A DNA stretch of 34,887 nt from positions 1 to 34,887 of the forward strand of contig MFGV01000027.1 of NCBI GenBank assembly GCA_001778375.1. The letters are read 5' to 3'. A program made the position numbers and the translations under genes. Positions within the stretch are counted from its first letter, which is position 1. The number at the start of each line of letters is the position of its first letter. This stretch comes from Candidatus Firestonebacteria bacterium RIFOXYD2_FULL_39_29 (GTDB lineage Bacteria; Oederibacteriota; D2-FULL-39-29). This document shows, piece by piece, positions 1,517 to 32,086 of this stretch. Under the pieces are notes generated by a model, which was given only the letters and a program-made list of their open reading frames with translations, did not search any database and was not told the DNA's origin.

Positions 1517-2527
1517 TTACGACAACGCTACCGCTAATCCGGCGAAAACTATAGCTACAGCATAGAGGAGAAGAACTGCTTGTTTTTGGGAGAGGCCAAA
1601 GGCCAGAAGTCTGTGATGAAGATGTTTTTTATCTGCCTGGGAAAGAGGGGTTTGATTCTTCCATCTTCGATAGACGGCAAAAACTATATCGAAGATCGGA
1701 ACCGTAAGGATAAGCGCGGGAGTAAAGAGTGTAATTGCCGTGACACCTTTAAATGAACCGATGATTGACATTGAGGCCAGCATAAGTCCCAGAAACATCG
1801 AGCCGCCGTCACCCATAAAGACTCTGGCGGGATTAAAATTAAATCTCAGGAATCCAAGGACCGAACCGGCAAGAACAATTGAAATTACTGAGATGAAAAA
1901 GGAAACTTTACCCGCAATGTAAAAACCTGAACTTGGTGGTTTAAAATACGATACACAAAAGAAGGCTACACAGCCTATAAAAGCAATCCCCCCCGCCAGG
2001 CCGTCAATTCCGTCAATAAAATTCATAGAGTTAATTAGAGCTACTATCCAGATTAATGTAATAATGACGGAGATTATAAGCGGAAATTGCAGATACTTAT
2101 TCCAGAAAGGTATTGTAACTCCCATTATTCTTACGCCAAAATAAATTACAACAAGCGCTACCACCGCCTGTCCCAGAAGCTTTACTTTTGGAGGAAGTCC
2201 CCATTTATCATCAACAAGTCCTACGCCGACCAATATTGTACTGCCAATAAAGAGTCCGAGGAGTTTTCCGGCAAGCAAGCCTGAATTTAAACGGAGCGCA
2301 GGACCAAAGAGGCCGCTAAACATATTATATACCAGGAGAGTCAGGAAAAAAGCTCCGTAAATACCGACACCGCCCCAGAGAGGTATTAAACTGCGGTGGA
2401 CTTTTCTATGAGAGGGTTTGTCAACTGCATCATATTTTACTGCCAGCTTCATGACCTGTTTGGTTATCAGAATCCCAAGCAGCGCGCTAAAAATAAACAA
2501 CGCCCAATACTTGGCGTCTATGTGCAT
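1517..2527 (-). CDS. Glycosyltransferase family 4 (WecA/TagO/MraY-type), polyprenyl-phosphate sugar-1-P transferase
   Basis: A 336-residue polytopic membrane protein, about ten hydrophobic segments. It transfers a HexNAc-1-phosphate from UDP-sugar to undecaprenyl phosphate, the first step of a lipid-linked glycan. Family motifs are in order: KPSHRKVHR (37-45), the VDD aspartates (105-107), NFIDGIDGL (169-177), MGDGGS (238-243) and the cytosolic His loop HLHHR (302-306). The HLHHR loop is typical of WecA/TagO rather than MraY. Length is normal. Its ATG lies inside the 3' end of the dCMP deaminase gene (10-bp overlap), so translation is probably coupled. It is the last gene of the large co-directional block. 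The sugar (GlcNAc or other) cannot be decided from sequence. Confidence 0.9.
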
Positions 2528-3009
2528 TTAAACCTTGTAAGTTTTATCCCGGCTTCCTTTAATATTTTAAGAGCCAGTTTATCGGGATAATCACCTTCAT
2601 AAATAACCTCAGTAACCCCCGCATTTATTATCATTTTTGCACAAGTAACACAGGGTTGAGTAGTACAATATAACACCGAATCTTTCATTGAATTACCAAA
2701 TCTCGCAGCCTGCAAAATAGCATTCTGTTCACCATGCAAACCCCTGCAGATCTCCTGCCTCTGTCCTGAAGGTACTCCCATCTTCTCTCTTAAGCAGCCA
2801 ACTTCGGTACAATGTCTGACGCCTGAAGGTGTTCCGTTATACCCTGTACTCAGTATCCTTTTTTCCTTAACCACTACCGCGCCCACTTTCCGCCTGGTAC
2901 AAGTGGAACGGGTAGCAATGAGATGCGCAACCTGCATAAAATACTGATCCCAGCTCGGGCGCTTATGTAAAGTCTTCTTATTCATTTTATCCCCTGTTTT
3001 CTTTAACAT
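2518..3009 (-). CDS. dCMP deaminase / ComEB-like zinc cytidine deaminase
   Basis: 163 residues with the zinc-dependent deaminase fold: YNGTPSG (57-63) for substrate, His92-Gly-Glu94 (zinc ligand and proton shuttle) and Pro119-Cys120-x-x-Cys123 (zinc ligands). It deaminates dCMP to dUMP for dTTP synthesis; ComEB of Firmicutes is the same family. Two starts are possible: ATG at 3009 with AAGGAA a few bases upstream, or the in-frame ATG nine codons later (2985) preceded by GGGG; both keep the domain intact. It overlaps the downstream transferase gene by 10 bp. Sitting near glyA fits one-carbon and thymidylate metabolism, but this is also a common housekeeping arrangement. Confidence 0.9.
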
Positions 3010-3038: not shown

Positions 3039-3085
3039 GTTTGTAAAGTCAGTAAGGTTATAAAGTTTTATACTAAGGTGTTATA
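3039..3085 (-). repeat. Period-9 degenerate array between comEB-like gene and glyA
   Basis: Units GTTTGTAAA, GTCAGTAAG and GTTATAAAG follow one another from 3039, then fade out. They face an opposite-strand array of the same unit at 3201-3237, so the 3010-3243 gap carries an inverted pair with about 115 bp between the arms. Confidence 0.6.
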
Positions 3086-3138
3086 ATCTATCAACCTCGA
3101 GGTTTTAATTAATAAAATGCCACCCCTAAAAATAACCT

Positions 3139-3207
3139 TATCTCGCTATGTCAACAGATGTTAACATCTATATATCCTACAATATCGAGAAAAGCTTTGC
3201 TTACAAA
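3139..3207. repeat. Dispersed repeat, copy 1 (partner at 22761-22825)
   Basis: About 65 bp matching 22761-22825 with one 1-base gap. Strongest shared blocks are CTATGTCAAC, ACATCTAT and CTTTGCTTAC. The core can form a short hairpin around its ATGT/ACAT arms. It has no coding capacity. Both copies sit beside period-9 arrays. Confidence 0.6.
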
Positions 3208-3237
3208 CCTTATGAACTTTAAAAACCTTACAAACTG
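3201..3237 (+). repeat. Period-9 array, inverted partner, abutting glyA stop
   Basis: On the minus strand, directly after the glyA stop, four 9-bp units fit: GTTTGTAAG, GTTTTTAAA, GTTCATAAG and GTTTGTAAG. The consensus is the same as at 4519-4625. Confidence 0.6.
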
Positions 3238-3243
3238 TTTTCG

Positions 3244-4497
3244 TTATATCTTCACCGGGAATTTTTTACAGAGCTGCTTTACTTTGCCTGCAACTTCTTT
3301 ATGGACTTTTGGACTCTTAATATTTTTAAGCACTCTATCTATAAGCTCGGCTATTTCAGGCATTTGTCCTTCCTTCATTCCCCTGGTTGTTATCGCAGGG
3401 GTCCCTATCCTTATTCCGCTGGTATGCCAGACATTCATAGTGTCATAAGGAATACCATTCTTATTAATCGTAATTCCTGAATCATCCAATACCAGGGCCG
3501 CATCTCTTCCCGTAATATTCAGACCACGAAGATCCACAAGCATAAGATGATTATCCGTGCCTCCGGTGACAAGCTTAAAACCCCGCTTTACAAGCTCTGC
3601 CGCGAGCACTTTTGCATTTTTCACAACCTGCTGCTGGTATTTTCTGAATTCTGGAGTCATAGCCTGCTTAAAACAGACAGCCTTTGCCGCGATAACATGA
3701 ACAAGCGGACCTCCCTGAATTCCGGGAAACACTGCTGAGTCAATCTTCTTTGCAAATTCCTTTCTGCTGATGATAAACCCGCCCCTCGGTCCGGAAAGAG
3801 TTTTATGTGTGGTACCTGTAACAAAATCCGCGTAAGGAGAGGCATCCGGATGTACTTTACCGGCTATCAGCCCGGCAATGTGCGCAATATCTGCCATAAA
3901 ATAAGCTCCTGCCTCCGCAGCAATATCTTTAAACTTTTTGAAATCAATTATCCTCGGATAGGCCGAAGCTCCCGCGATTATTAACTTTGGACGGTGTTTC
4001 AATGCGAGCTGTCTGATTTCATCGTAATCCAGCAGATTTGTATCCCTGTTTACGCCATAGGAAACAATTTTATAGGTCTTTCCCGATATATTAGCCGGAG
4101 CACCGTGTGTTAAATGTCCGCCACAGGACAGATCCATTCCCATAACAACATCACCCGCTTGTAAAACAGCAATGAAAACAGCAAGATTAGCAGAGGAGCC
4201 GGAATGCGGCTGAACATTAACATGTTCCGCGTTAAAGAGTTTTTGCATCCGGTCAATCGCCAGTTGTTCTATCTCACTGGCATATTGGCAACCTTCATAA
4301 AACTTTTTATACGGATACCCTTCAGCATACTTATTAGTAAGAACAGACCCTTGCGCCGCCATTACAGCCTTACTGGCGTAATTTTCAGAAGCAATCATCT
4401 GAAGTTTAGTATTTTCTCTTTTAAACTCCTCTATGATCAACTTTTCCAATACAGGATCTTCTTTCTTTAATACATCGCCAAAATAACCTTTGAACAT
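3244..4497 (-). CDS. glyA: Serine hydroxymethyltransferase
   Basis: 417 residues, the usual SHMT length. It is a PLP enzyme interconverting serine plus tetrahydrofolate and glycine plus 5,10-methylene-THF, the main source of one-carbon units for purines and dTMP. Visible family features are the [10 protein letters not shown] cofactor-binding segment (98-107), DIAHIAGLI (203-211) with the PLP-contacting Asp and His, and the Schiff-base Lys232 in [12 protein letters not shown] (229-240). The ATG has GGAGG 7-9 nt upstream. The neighbouring rpiB, ywlE and sua5 genes reproduce the B. subtilis ywlC-ywlE-ywlF-glyA order. Between glyA and rpiB lies an inverted pair of period-9 arrays. Confidence 0.97.
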
Positions 4498-4518
4498 GCT
4501 TTTGCCTCCGGCAAAAAA

Positions 4519-4625
4519 GTTTTTAAAGTTTATAAAGTTTTTAAGGTTTGTAACGTAAAAGATCTTTTTTCCATTTATTATTCTCAGACCTTATAAACCT
4601 TACAAACTTTATGAACCTTACAAAC
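4519..4625. repeat. Inverted pair of exact period-9 arrays between glyA and rpiB
   Basis: Left arm 4519-4554 is exactly four 9-mers: GTTTTTAAA, GTTTATAAA, GTTTTTAAG, GTTTGTAAC. Right arm 4590-4625, read on the other strand, is four more: GTTTGTAAG, GTTCATAAA, GTTTGTAAG, GTTTATAAG. A 35-nt spacer separates them, so a long imperfect hairpin is possible in the rpiB-glyA transcript. The last right-arm unit contains the rpiB stop codon (TAA at 4618-4620), so the array has invaded the end of the gene. This is the clearest example in the window. Confidence 0.8.
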
Positions 4626-5061
4626 CGTCTTCAATTTTCGTTATTTTATCCAATCTATCCTGATGTCTTCCGCCTTCGAAGGCGGTATTAAGGAACTTCT
4701 TAAGTATCTCCAGAGCAAGCCCTTTCCCGACAACACGGCCTCCCATCACCAGAATATTAGCATTATTGTGTTTCCTTGCCATTTCGGCAAGATACAGATC
4801 GTTACAGAGCGCAGCGCGTATACCTTTCACCTTATTGGCAGCAATAGACATCCCGAGACCCGTACCGCAAAAGAGTATTCCATAATCTGCTCTCTTCGCC
4901 TTTACTTCCCCGGCTACCTTTATTGCATAATCCGGATAGTCAACGCTTTTTTCAGAACTAGCGCCAACATCGTTTACAGAATAACCCATTTTCCCTAATT
5001 CCGCTTTGATATATTCCTTAAGCTCAAAAGATGCATGATCACTGCCAAGAACTATCATCAT
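4618..5061 (-). CDS. rpiB: Ribose-5-phosphate isomerase B
   Basis: 147 residues from the chosen start. It interconverts ribose-5-P and ribulose-5-P in the pentose phosphate pathway (RpiB/LacAB family). Visible: GSDHA (6-10) at the N terminus, catalytic Cys65 in FCGTGLGMSIAANK, and His98-Asn99-Asn100 in HNNANIL. A longer frame opens at 5112, but its first 17 residues do not match the family and would overlap the upstream gene. GAGGAT sits 5 nt before the ATG at 5061, so that start is preferred. The stop codon lies within a period-9 repeat unit. The isomerase feeds PRPP and purine synthesis, in line with purE and glyA nearby. Confidence 0.95.
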   Translation of the reverse strand: MMIVLGSDHASFELKEYIKAELGKMGYSVNDVGASSEKSVDYPDYAIKVAGEVKAKRADYGILFCGTGLGMSIAANKVKGIRAALCNDLYLAEMARKHNNANILVMGGRVVGKGLALEILKKFLNTAFEGGRHQDRLDKITKIEDGL

Positions 5062-5077
5062 TGTATCCTCACTTTCT

Positions 5078-5506
5078 TTAGAGTTTTGATAAAATGTGTT
5101 TATCCACAGCACTAATAATCATATCCAGACTATCCCTATATTCTTCCAAAGTCAAGCCAATAGGATCAGGCACACTTTTGTCTGCCAGCAGTTCAACTTT
5201 ATCTTTCACGGAAATAAAATTTAAACCCAAGATCTCCAAATGGTTCCTTGCTAAGGCATATATCTTATCCGCCTCTGCCGCTATTTCCCCGGTTAGTAAT
5301 CTCGAAACATGAGCAGAAGCATCAATCCCTATCTCTTCCAGAACTGCCAAAGCCCCCTGCGAAGCCGGCATACCGTCAATCGTTGCGACACCTGCCGAAC
5401 TCACCGTTATGCCGCTGATACCAAGATCATCAAGCTTTGATCTTGTATAGTACTCCGCCATTACACTTCTGCAGGTATTTCCGGTACAAACAAAAAGTAT
5501 TTTCAT
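5078..5506 (-). CDS. ywlE: Low-molecular-weight phosphatase, YwlE (protein-arginine phosphatase) type
   Basis: 142 residues of the LMW-PTP/arsenate reductase fold. The P-loop is Cys7-Thr-Gly-Asn-Thr11-Cys-Arg13-Ser and the general-acid loop is VPDPIG. In the YwlE subfamily a threonine in the fifth P-loop position, where tyrosine phosphatases have isoleucine, confers phospho-arginine selectivity; Thr11 is present here. Location next to sua5 and rpiB matches B. subtilis ywlC-ywlE-ywlF. Its ATG overlaps the sua5 stop (TAATG), so translation is coupled. The matching arginine kinase (McsB) is not in this window, so the arginine assignment is by residue and synteny only; a plain tyrosine phosphatase is the alternative. 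Confidence 0.85.
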   Translation of the reverse strand: MKILFVCTGNTCRSVMAEYYTRSKLDDLGISGITVSSAGVATIDGMPASQGALAVLEEIGIDASAHVSRLLTGEIAAEADKIYALARNHLEILGLNFISVKDKVELLADKSVPDPIGLTLEEYRDSLDMIISAVDKHILSKL

Positions 5507-9881: not shown

Positions 9882-9897
9882 CTAATTCTCCTCAACC

Positions 9898-9938
9898 GTT
9901 AAAACGTTACACGTTATCACGTTACTAACGTTCTACAC
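9898..9938 (+). repeat. GTT-phased array upstream of smc
   Basis: Five units each starting GTT and ending AC (GTTAAAAC, GTTACAC, GTTATCAC, GTTACTAAC, GTTCTACAC), 7-9 bp long, run without interruption just upstream of the smc ribosome site. They resemble the period-9 family but with looser spacing. Confidence 0.55.
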
Positions 9939-9978
9939 TAATGTTGTATTATTTTTATCAATAACTCCTATATGTAAA

Positions 9979-9999
9979 CCTAGAACCTAGCACCCAGGC
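9979..9999 (+). repeat. Period-7 array between smc and methyltransferase gene
   Basis: Three consecutive 7-mers: CCTAGAA, CCTAGCA, CCCAGGC. Almost the same words recur at 18774-18801. The remainder of the 9882-10154 gap shows no gene. Confidence 0.55.
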
Positions 10000-12898: not shown

Positions 12899-14447
<1,549 letters not shown>

Positions 14448-14449
14448 TT

Positions 14450-15301
14450 TTAACTTACTGCCGCTGCTCCGCCTACTAAATCACTTAATTCTTTCGTAAT
14501 ACTTGCCTGCCTGGTTTGATTATATACCAGGGTCAATTTTTTTATTATATCATCCGCATTTGTAGTCGCCTGCTCCATTGAAGTCATACGCAATCCCTGT
14601 TCAGAAGCATTCGATTCAAGAAGTATTCCGTAAAATACGACACCTAAATATTTAGGCAATAACCTCTCCAGAAGCGTCTCAACATTCGGTTCAAATATAA
14701 ATTCAGATTTCACTCCTGATACCCCATCAATAGAAACAGGCAGTAATAGGAAATTTTTCGTTTTAGCCTGAGTCACAATTTTAAATTCATTGAATAATAC
14801 ATTGACACTCCGGTACTTTTTCGCTTTATAATCTCTCAAAATATCATTAATAATCCCTACAACACCCGCATAATTCAGATTATTCATGACTGCCGAGTAA
14901 TGTCGCAATGATTTAAATCCGCGATGCGTCAGGTAATCCCTTCCTTTTTTTCCGACAGTAATAATATCCACAGGATTAGGACAGGTCTTGAGATATTTTA
15001 AACAACCTTTCAAAAGAGTACTGTTAAAACTCCCGCAAAGTCCTTTATCGGAGGTTATTACGACCAGCATTTCCTTTTCAGCTTTTTCAGGGGCGGTAAA
15101 ACATACATTATTATAACTATCAGGTTTTTTCGAGACGAGATCCTTCATAAGCATTTCCATATCAAGCTTATAGGGTCTGTTTGATATAAGATTCTGATGC
15201 GCCTTTCTATACCTGACAGCCGCAACCATCTTCATAGCTTTAGTGATCTGCTGGGTCTTTTTTATGCTCGCAATACGTTTGCGTATTTCACGTGTATTCA
15301 T
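14450..15301 (-). CDS. atpG: F1 ATP synthase gamma subunit
   Basis: 283 residues. The central rotor shaft. The N-terminal helix begins TREIRKRIASIKKTQQITKAMKMVA and the C-terminal helix (AMEQATTNADDIIKKLTLVYNQ-like) is intact: the two ends that form the coiled coil inside the alpha3-beta3 ring. The ATG at 15301 has only a weak GGA upstream. The usual upstream neighbour atpA is missing; guaA lies there instead, 345 bp away. The remaining F1Fo genes (atpB, E, F, H, A) are not in this window, so the operon is split. Confidence 0.93.
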   Translation of the reverse strand: MNTREIRKRIASIKKTQQITKAMKMVAAVRYRKAHQNLISNRPYKLDMEMLMKDLVSKKPDSYNNVCFTAPEKAEKEMLVVITSDKGLCGSFNSTLLKGCLKYLKTCPNPVDIITVGKKGRDYLTHRGFKSLRHYSAVMNNLNYAGVVGIINDILRDYKAKKYRSVNVLFNEFKIVTQAKTKNFLLLPVSIDGVSGVKSEFIFEPNVETLLERLLPKYLGVVFYGILLESNASEQGLRMTSMEQATTNADDIIKKLTLVYNQTRQASITKELSDLVGGAAAVS

Positions 15302-18495: not shown

Positions 18496-18603
18496 TTTTG
18501 CATTTTCTCCATCTTTTCTTGTCATGTTGAGCTATTTTTCTTTTCGCGAAATATCCCTGCTTTTCCAGCATATGATTCCACTTATACTAGAGTAAATCCA
18601 ATA

Positions 18604-18759
18604 ACTAAGATCTAAATTCTAAGCACTAAACAATTACTAATACTTAATCACTAAGTTTTAAACAAAATCATTGCAGTTATATTAATTATCTTCCTTTTTA
18701 GTGATTAGTGCTTTAATCTTAGTCATTGTTTAGTTATTAGTGCTTAATCCTTAGTAATT
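18604..18759. repeat. 156-bp palindromic element, copy downstream of argG
   Basis: It matches 20257-20412 at 152 of 156 positions with no gaps and in the same orientation. The element is itself an imperfect inverted repeat: the left third is built from ACTAAG/CTAAGCAC/ACTAAT words and the right third from their complements, around an A+T-rich centre. No ORF. It looks MITE-like, but no target-site duplication is obvious. Confidence 0.85.
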
Positions 18760-18773
18760 TACCCGCTATGCTT

Positions 18774-18801
18774 CTAGTCCCCAGAACCCAGCACCTAGAA
18801 C
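18774..18801 (+). repeat. Period-7 array in the argH-argG gap
   Basis: Four consecutive 7-mers: CTAGTCC, CCAGAAC, CCAGCAC, CTAGAAC. The words resemble those at 9979-9999. Confidence 0.6.
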
Positions 18802-18861
18802 CTCTTTATTCTAATTGTTAATTATTATATCACTTCCGCGTAGTTTTTTACAATTTTTAAA

Positions 18862-18898
18862 TGAAAAAAGCCGTGCATAGAAAGACTATGCACGGCTT
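18862..18898 (-). terminator. Rho-independent terminator after argG
   Basis: A perfect 13-bp GC-containing stem (18868-18880 with 18886-18898, 5-nt loop) is followed on the minus strand by TTTTTT. It lies 93 bp past the argG stop and should end the argB-D-F-G transcript before argH. Confidence 0.9.
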
Positions 18899-18952
18899 AT
18901 CAATTCAGACTCAAACATCTGCGCCTCTGAGCATCCCCGCTAAAAGTTCCTT

Positions 18953-18979
18953 TTGGCGAGGTCTCGCCCTCGGGCGGAC
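18953..18979 (+). repeat. TTGGCGAG-RTCTCRCC palindrome, copy 1
   Basis: GGCGAG and CTCGCC arms with a 2-nt centre, followed by a GGCGGAC tail. A related copy is at 22674-22699 with the same order of blocks. A short dispersed palindrome. Confidence 0.5.
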
Positions 18980-18990
18980 GCGCCTCCGTT

Positions 18991-20205: not shown

Positions 20206-20256
20206 AATTTTCTCCTTTTCGAAAAAGATTCCACGGATATAATTGCAAATTGAATC

Positions 20257-20412
20257 ACTAAGATCTAAATTCTAAGCACTAAACAATTACTAATACTTAA
20301 TCACTAAGTTTTAAACAAAATCATTGTAGTTATATTAATTATCTTCCTTTTTAGTAATTAGTGCTTTAATCTTAGTAATTGTTTAGTCATTAGTGCTTAA
20401 TCCTTAGTAATT
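20257..20412. repeat. 156-bp palindromic element, copy upstream of argG
   Basis: Second copy of the element at 18604-18759, with 4 mismatches and no indels. It occupies almost the whole argF-argG gap. Because all arg genes read on the minus strand, the element would be transcribed inside the arg messenger and could fold there. Confidence 0.85.
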
Positions 20413-20440
20413 CTGTTTATCGCTGCACTCTCATAGAACC

Positions 20441-23745: not shown

Positions 23746-23783
23746 GTCCATAACGTCTGTAAAAGTCCATAAAAGTCTATAAC
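23746..23783 (+). repeat. Period-9 array upstream of argB
   Basis: Units GTCCATAAC, GTCTGTAAAA, GTCCATAAAA, GTCTATAAC; the best-preserved GTC-type copy. It lies between the xer 3' array and the argB start. Confidence 0.7.
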
Positions 23784-23817
23784 GTAAAATATGTTACTCG
23801 CTTTTCGCTGTCGCTCA

Positions 23818-23898
23818 ACTTTCGTCACTTTACCAATTTACTCACTGTGCTTTCTGTACTTGCTGTACTTGCTTTCCCTGCTTTACTTGCTTCTCCTA
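23818..23898 (-). repeat. Nine-unit period-9 array starting at the xer stop codon
   Basis: On the minus strand, from the xer stop: TAGGAGAAG, CAAGTAAAG, CAGGGAAAG, CAAGTACAG twice, AAAGCACAG, then three weaker units. The phase is exactly 9 bp throughout and the stop codon TAG is part of the first unit. The word differs from the GTYYRTAAR type but the period is the same. It is purine-rich on the transcribed RNA. Confidence 0.7.
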
Positions 23899-31379: not shown

Positions 31380-32086
31380 AACCGTGCTTCGTTTCCATCA
31401 TCCCCTCTAAAATTCCGTACGGTGAGTTTTCCCCAGTACGGCTTCAAACATAGGCTCCGTCTGTTTCAGTTATAGCCTTCCCTTTCGGTTTACTATAACC
31501 TTCGTTCATTTATTCAGTGTTTCGGCATTAATTCTTGTCTGTTTAGTAGCCTTTCGGCAAATCAGACCGCCTTCCACTTTTCCATGAACCGCCTACATCC
31601 AGAGGTGCTTTGCTCGGCAAAGTTATGTTGTCTTTACCTTTTTCGCTACTACCACCTCATCCGCCAGTCTGACAAACATTCTCTGCTTTCCTGTTTTACA
31701 GTTATACAGAGAACCTTTTGTTCATCAGACCTTCCTCACTTTGATTGCTAATCCTTTCCTGATTGTCATCCCTCTTACCCCGAAGAGATTGCCGACTGCT
31801 TACCTCTAATTCTTCATCGTCAATTCCAGTCATCACCCCTCAATTACGGGCTTGACTCTCTTATCCCCACTGTCAGTTTATTTCGTGGGCGTAGTTCACG
31901 AGGCTAACTTTGGTTCGTTTCACTATGACCCTCAGGATTGCTCACTCCGCCTGACACAGAATTTTTACTTCCGAGCTTTCAATTGTAAAGTCGCCTTTAC
32001 AATTGTCGGATATAACTACGGTGCCGATTAGAGTACTGCACCGAGAGGACTTTCACCTCCTGGACTAACAATTTTATGAGCTGCAC
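31380..32086 (-). mobile_element. Group II intron without an encoded reverse transcriptase
   Basis: A gene-free block of about 700 bp that reads, on the minus strand, like a bacterial group II ribozyme. The 5' end is near GTGCAGC at 32086, similar to the GUGYG intron start, followed by the GGAGGTGAAAGTCC segment and a GGTGC...GGCACC stem. Domain I words such as GTGAAACGAACCAAAG and GAGGTGGTAGTAGCGAA follow. Domain V is at 31411-31445. The 3' end is not fixed; domain VI should lie just beyond 31411. No reverse transcriptase frame exists anywhere in it (a full intron would be about 2-2.5 kb), so it is an ORF-less intron dependent on a maturase elsewhere, or a relic. Confidence 0.72.
31411..31445 (-). 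ncRNA. Group II intron domain V
   Basis: Reading on the minus strand, AGCCGTAC and GTACGG form the lower and upper helix around a GGGGAAAACTC internal part, with the catalytic AGC triad at the 5' side. This matches the conserved ~34-nt domain V of bacterial group II introns in size, pairing and tetraloop. Confidence 0.75.

Follow-up and report, generated by a model that had tools for sequence, protein, structure and literature searches.

The gap between rpiB and glyA in Candidatus Firestonebacteria bacterium RIFOXYD2_FULL_39_29 holds two arrays of short repeated units on opposite strands, and further pairs lie in other gaps of the 34,887-nt stretch of DNA that we analyzed (the window). A preliminary description of this locus had read such pairs as RNA hairpins between cistrons. 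We therefore asked what the paired arrays are, and what keeps their two arms inverted.

In the rpiB/glyA gap, the two four-unit arms lie 35 nt apart, at the coordinates that the preliminary description had given (Table 1). Its term "exact 9-mers" is right for the spacing, a 9-nt pitch, but not for the letters, as the units differ. The 7-mer pair that it reported was found in the atpG/atpD gap, at most one base from the positions first given, and a pair is also present in the comEB/glyA gap, where the plus-strand arm is damaged. The AtpG protein of the window shares 90% identity with its counterpart in Candidatus Firestonebacteria RIFOXYA2_FULL_40_8.

Table 1. Positions of arms, spacers, neighboring elements and genes in the window
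Feature	Position	Strand	Basis
comEB-like deaminase gene	2518-3009	-	ORF call, Pfam family
9-mer arm, damaged, with some three units, at the comEB end of comEB/glyA gap	3039-3065	+	units by eye
Dispersed palindromic element (CAAAGCTTTTCTCG..GTTGACAT..CGAGA) beside the 3200-3235 arm, TAAG on both sides (possible 4-nt duplication)	3137-3203	-	
9-mer arm, four units, glyA end of comEB/glyA gap	3200-3235	-	sequence
glyA	3244-4497	-	ORF call, Pfam family
9-mer arm, four 9-nt units of GTTNNTAAN type (GTTTTTAAA GTTTATAAA GTTTTTAAG GTTTGTAAC), glyA side of rpiB/glyA gap	4519-4554	+	sequence and whole-genome pattern
Spacer (loop), 35 nt, separating the arms of the rpiB/glyA gap	4555-4589	.	sequence
9-mer arm, four 9-nt units (GTTTGTAAG GTTCATAAA GTTTGTAAG GTTTATAAG), rpiB/glyA gap; outermost TAA is the rpiB stop codon	4590-4625	-	sequence, ORF calls
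rpiB	4618-5112	-	ORF call, Pfam family
ACGT-type arm, in a mixed-family pair with the CTAGG-type 7-mer arm that faces it at 9974-9992; related pair in G001, a genome of the same genus	9897-9932	-	
atpD-like gene	12899-14314	-	ORF call, Pfam family
7-mer arm, four units (ACTAAGT ACTAATG ACTACTG ACTATTT), atpG/atpD gap	14339-14366	+	sequence
7-mer arm, four units (ACTAATT ACTAGTG ACTAATG ACTATTT), atpG/atpD gap	14414-14441	-	sequence
atpG	14450-15301	-	ORF call, Pfam family
7-mer arm, family 7C, two blocks of roughly four units; partner arm placed by eye near 18600-18660	18697-18759	-	
7C arm, second near-identical copy; partner arm seen by eye within this gap	20350-20412	-	
GTCYRTAA-type 9-mer arm facing a AAGCAAGTA-type arm at 23837-23892, a mixed-family pair	23746-23784	+	

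Two near-identical long 7-mer palindromes with a 32-nt higher-order period were also seen in the window at 18526-18990 and 20206-20440, about 1.6 kb apart. Elsewhere, a 7-nt array pair of TCTCGATT type lies between tRNA-Ile and tRNA-Ala genes (L044, 18062-18153). At Rfam gathering scores, the only matches in the window were to tRNA and to a group II intron (D1-D4 region, 31918-32062), and none fell in the gaps.

Unit families, unit number and orientation

In the 9-mer unit, GTT and TAA are nearly fixed, and the two letters in between plus the ninth letter are variable. Several families, named by eye, coexist in one genome: GTTNNTAAN, GTCYRTAAN and AAGCAAGTA types among the 9-nt units, and ACTAATG, ACAATTG, ACTAAGC, CTAGGTT and other types among the 7-nt units. 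A coding reading of the 9-nt units (Val-X-Lys, GTT NNT AAR) was dropped because the 7-nt arms show the same behavior. Other periods were noticed as well, namely 10-nt units (ACCTTTACGG) in G003 (L235, L237) and 8-nt units in G013 (L243, L245).

A 301-nt query spanning the rpiB/glyA gap found 71 matches in the window's own genome. We scanned a 347,797-b sample of this genome, with 34,029 b of gaps and 307,572 b of called ORFs. The gaps held 17 period-7 arrays, against 0.4 in shuffles, and 9 period-9 arrays, against 0.2. Despite nine times as much sequence, the called ORFs held 1 and 8, respectively, several of which were low-complexity stretches or small ORFs. Per base, the arrays are thus far denser in gaps than in ORFs, an intergenic placement of the kind seen in the short repeats called STRR. 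The period-7 gap arrays in this sample (21) span 27-42 nt, where 27 nt is the smallest reportable span, or about four units by eye.

In an exact search of 45 genomes of the phylum, the four-unit (GTTNNTAAN)n word occurred in 8 of the 9 genomes of the order and in none of the 36 others. The reversed word had no match in any of the 45, so the arrays are not due to chance. An inexact search outside the order gave one weak match (G037, E 2.6e-4). The smallest genome of the order, G002 (1.7 Mb), has no four-unit and two three-unit matches; it also lacked period-7/9 arrays in 21 gaps and gave no Y1 transposase match.

In the window's family, the number of units per arm is narrowly limited. Exact counts of facing and of units cover the GTTNNTAAN family; in the window's own genome, the three-, four- and five-unit words have 103, 41 and 0 matches. 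From 100 of the 103 matches, which were those listed, we rebuilt 59 arrays, 41 of four units and 18 of three, and all 41 four-unit words differ from one another. Across the four armed genomes of the window's family, the four-unit word has 131 matches and the five-unit word 1. In the sister family, four units were found in 80 of the 121 arms in the sequence sampled, three in 25 and more than four in 16; some of its arms have 5-8 units, and one-unit indels occur. With looser matching, at loci that were for the most part selected for their resemblance to the window gap, arms of four units made up 44 of 60 in the window's own genome and 25 of 47 in relatives.

Adjacent units are seldom identical in the window's own genome (1/123, against 11.3 expected when same-index units are shuffled among arms, P < 1/5000; 0/114 pairs in the locus set). 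Relatives in a mixed set gave 5.8% against 8.1% expected, which is not significant, and the sister family gave 21/240 against 28 expected (P 0.07). The avoidance of identical neighbors is therefore clear only in the window's own genome, and weak or absent in relatives.

As the preliminary description had noted for single gaps, both arms of a pair follow one unit grammar and face each other. In the window's own genome, all 11 pairs of neighboring arms within 300 nt were facing (among the 100 matches listed of 103). The sister family had 35 neighboring pairs, of which 30 were facing and 5 were not. In the locus set, pairs faced at 16 of 16 own-genome loci and at 10 of 13 in relatives, the other 3 not facing. 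Facing arms around a non-coding spacer resemble the terminal inverted repeats of MITEs, as do the AAAGTT..AACTTT ends of the filled site described below.

STRR copy number varies through slippage, and longer arrays occur. The paired arrays might likewise be neutral tandem repeats made by slipped-strand copying, with chance or an inversion accounting for the opposite orientation of the arms. Indels of unit size seen between orthologs, and the 5-8-unit arms and identical neighbors of the sister family, would suit this explanation, as would the similar heptamers and the four-repeat array of Nostoc in the accessible parts of the published accounts. Yet no exact 9-mer array in the window's own genome exceeds four units (16 of 121 do so in the sister family), and the limit is sharp throughout the window's family. 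The scarcity of identical neighbors in the window's own genome, weak or missing in relatives, is the opposite of what fresh slippage leaves, and the uniform facing there also speaks against it. We regard slippage as an improbable source of these pairs.

Folding and pairing of the arms

We folded 26 two-armed elements, 105-264 nt in length, and compared them with dinucleotide shuffles. The median z was -6.1 (range -1.8 to -8.8), and the median on the other strand was -5.3. The window gap 4498-4617 gave -33.4 kcal/mol (z -5.2) on the minus strand, the strand on which the preliminary description had proposed to fold the gaps. Paired arms can thus fold.

If the folded stem were what is maintained, changes in one arm would be expected to be compensated in the other, as the preliminary description had suggested. 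We compared own arms with swapped arms at three registers and by duplex energy. In 26 pairs, the match score was 26.9 for own arms and 27.4 for swapped arms (permutation P 0.86), and the duplex energy was -30.4 versus -32.3 (P 0.98). Among 33 elements with four units in each arm, the identity of the variable NN letters was 0.205 versus 0.242 (P 0.90). Own arms thus pair no better than swapped ones. Moreover, of 27 9-mer arms that look single, 11 face, by eye, an arm of another repeat family; a 28th, in the window, stands outside this set. A selected RNA stem is unsupported by these results, since the arms show none of the covariation to which the preliminary description had itself tied it.

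The two arms are related in another way. In the sister family, they agree on the presence or absence of C at unit position 9 in 27 of 30 elements (Fisher P 2e-5). This agreement of sub-type fits a common origin of both arms, after which the variable letters drifted freely. We attribute the common grammar of the arms to that origin, not to base-by-base pairing, and hairpin formation to the layout of facing arms.

Selection on intercistronic mRNA hairpins, for processing, 3'-end stability or pausing, would keep the arms inverted because they must pair. Besides the strong folding, the location is suggestive, because by eye the elements frequently lie between the stop codon and the ribosome site of co-directional genes. 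The 148 gaps of the own-genome sample comprise 119 co-directional, 15 convergent and 14 divergent ones, of which 20, 3 and 0, respectively, held period-7/9 arrays. Their absence from divergent gaps would be expected of such hairpins; it also fits, weakly if taken alone, tolerance away from promoters. The slow change of some elements points the same way as the folding. Against selected hairpins stand the missing covariation, the arms of different families that face each other, and the frequent loss or replacement of elements in orthologous gaps. Also, where an element is kept, its loop is nearly as conserved as its arms (mismatches 9/323 and 6/531, respectively). We consider this explanation unlikely.

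Turnover of the elements and their neighbors

Comparison of the same gaps across G000 (the window's own genome) to G004 showed mostly different families, mixed families or short gaps. Related elements in the window's own genome and G001 were found in two gaps, atpG/atpD and the gap beside a 1000-aa ORF; the atpG/atpD gap is short in G002-G004. Among 106 orthologous gap pairs from G005-G008, 26 carried 9-mer arms on both sides, 6 on one side and 74 on neither.

One of the six one-sided pairs is a clean filled and empty site. A 130-nt two-armed unit with the ends AAAGTT..AACTTT is present in G007 and absent in G008, the coding flanks being 10.6% diverged. No target duplication, a usual mark of MITEs, was found at this site, the one such site seen. 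The difference may also be a precise loss in G008 instead of a gain. The other five one-sided pairs, which cover three gaps, are messy.

Elements present on both sides behaved in two ways. In 10 of 21 newly compared pairs they were nearly unchanged, with the arm and spacer mismatches given above; in the other 11 they could not be aligned as the same element, with 100/514 arm positions mismatched. This split was made after seeing the data, from contigs partly picked for holding arms, and among the ten conserved pairs three compare the same gap and one, with 0.4% coding divergence, is little informative. For the 74 armless pairs, 1294/8597 sites differ, and their coding flanks differ by about 14%. 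In three of the gaps with conserved elements, where other DNA exceeds 100 nt, the element (arms and spacer) differs at 1/110, 4/110 and 2/126 positions and the rest at 26/157, 18/108 and 11/209. Nearly identical arms were also seen to differ by 9-nt indels, and exactly one 9-nt unit differs between some orthologous arms, in agreement with the earlier suggestion that selection or copying acts on units.

Strong conservation of armed gaps was considered and rejected. A first set of six simple pairs had shown 0/342 mismatches in arms, 1/200 between arms (five pairs with a spacer) and 525/5230 outside. That set was biased, since it was picked from similar search scores, and the later set of 21 pairs was mixed. 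A seventh pair (L012/L026), with 12/144 mismatches, spans several elements.

Alternatively, selection might maintain the arms as iteron-like arrays, each offering four binding sites to a protein that binds DNA or RNA, with any mobility incidental. A fixed GTT..TAA frame around two variable letters, usually in four copies and in a set orientation, is what such sites would look like, and about half of the shared elements change slowly. However, occupancy turns over fast, one genome holds several unit families with 7- and 9-nt pitch, and the explanation comes without a candidate protein. We hold it to be quite improbable.

On balance, we lean towards reading the paired arrays as the ends of small palindromic elements, dispersed between genes and gained or lost as a unit, with the hairpin secondary. 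This reading draws on the directly observed layout, orientation and turnover, the four-unit limit in the window's family, the one filled and empty site and the lack of covariation between arms. Our confidence is tempered by the non-facing arms in relatives and by a neighbor rule that is clear only in the window's own genome.

Under such a scheme, each arm would be a short block, usually of four variable units from a 9-nt or 7-nt family, nearly always pointing inward, and the whole element would come or go at once. Within it, units would change through point mutations and through single-unit gains or losses, and other small elements would land inside or next to the arms. A putative enzyme that reads the arms may provide mobility; any gain to the host would be equally conjectural. 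Hairpin formation may restrict where the elements are tolerated.

The spacers bear on how such elements could spread. Those of different elements in the sister family are apparently unrelated by eye beyond a GTAAA..TTTAC junction. Some elements of the window's own genome, also by eye, have one of a few recurring inner junction sequences. Unrelated spacers disfavor simple copying of one master, as do arms of mixed families. If the elements move, the spacers must undergo rapid replacement, or else different spacers acquire their arms by new formation or by capture.

It is possible, if doubtful, that the pairs represent a new class of mobile element. Each would have a locus-specific loop between two inward arms of four iterated units that differ from their neighbors, and would be inserted or removed whole, with no target duplication, by a putative recombinase able to read or count the units. 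In that case, the unit families would be specificities of one machinery, and the arms would be exchangeable.

Y1 transposases were found in 12 of 13 genomes searched, including all 8 armed genomes of the order but not G002, and also in all four outgroup genomes. Twenty Y1 genes (L191-L210), mostly of about 190-235 aa, were collected, many flanked by GGGACAG..CTGTCCC or GTGACAGTC..GACTGTCAC palindromes; with their own palindromes, they are apparently RAYT-type elements in their own right. In a REP/RAYT system, the palindromes of the element would flank the transposase gene. No 9-mer GTTNNTAA or ACTAATG-type arm was seen by eye beside these genes (20 loci from 7 genomes, with flanks of at most 260 nt on each side, some ending early at contig ends). 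At L207, one GTCYRTAA-type stretch lies about 170 nt from the Y1 gene. A RAYT (Y1) enzyme as the mobilizer is now a lead only, because many of the genes carry palindromes of their own, the outgroups have Y1 and G002 is small.

Other small elements lie among the arms. The element at 3137-3203 has matches in G001, G003 and G004. Several further copies are likewise found at TAAG/TAAA, which suggests that arms may serve as landing sites. A 118-nt element (L264, 4196-4313) has many copies in G006-G008, which are 93-98% identical between loci and between species. Several copies interrupt 9-mer arms, where they occupy TTATAA-like sites and may have duplicated a TA, and the element is apparently an active MITE landing in arms.

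Comparison with known repeat systems

REP/RAYT and MITE-type sequences (REP, ERIC/RU, Correia) are short non-coding palindromes between genes that vary in presence and absence among relatives. The elements described here are likewise dispersed, non-coding and palindromic, present in some relatives and absent from others, with no target duplication at the one site seen. Where REP and MITE sequences have a single conserved terminal repeat, the arms here are arrays of four units, and the spacers differ between copies. They also differ from REP/RAYT systems in having no partner enzyme among the loci examined, where the local Y1 genes have other palindromes.

The accessible parts of the STRR papers on the cyanobacterium Nostoc PCC 7120 describe intergenic repeats, usually of 7 nt, that are foldable, occur in operons and are of unknown function, one example having four copies (PMC2408588, PMC2670836). 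The csR1 sequences ttgtcagttgtcag and ccactgactactgac given there resemble the ACTAATG/ACTACTG units of the window. In contrast to STRR, the arrays here commonly have 9-nt units, stand in facing pairs around a spacer, stop at four units, have few identical neighbors and belong to an unrelated phylum.

A second likeness is to the P6b stem of the Nostoc tRNA-Leu(UAA) intron. As far as the available text of PMC4476775 goes, its arms consist of degenerate 7-nt units (Class I TDNGATT, Class II NNTGAGT); single units are gained or lost on one side, whole regions are replaced, and repeat number is kept within one-type lineages. Stem arms of degenerate units that gain or lose single units are common to both systems. 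However, P6b is one site inside a group I intron, whereas here there are many intergenic sites and several families, and mixed families can face each other. The TAACTGA direct repeats of Beggiatoaceae are, in the available text of PMC4679880, abundant intergenic heptamers, scattered, with 7-nt indels between Cyanothece strains. They consist of a single exact heptamer, directly repeated, which in Maribeggiatoa mostly stands immediately ahead of start codons, and that text does not describe them as facing pairs.

Our literature search, which left subscription papers mostly outside, found nothing on intergenic repeats in Firestonebacteria. The accessible parts of PMC2408588, PMC2670836, PMC4476775 and PMC4679880 do not describe facing pairs, a four-unit limit, avoidance of identical neighbors or exchange of arms between families. 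To the extent that these sources cover it, the kind of array is known in outline, from the STRR heptamers, the P6b stem and the TAACTGA repeats. It is an old puzzle whether such repeats are products of slippage, binding sites or mobile elements. Facing pairs with a near-fixed number of non-identical units, in genomes so closely related that one site is seen both filled and empty, make this puzzle decidable by strain comparison and a search for an enzyme or protein that reads the units.
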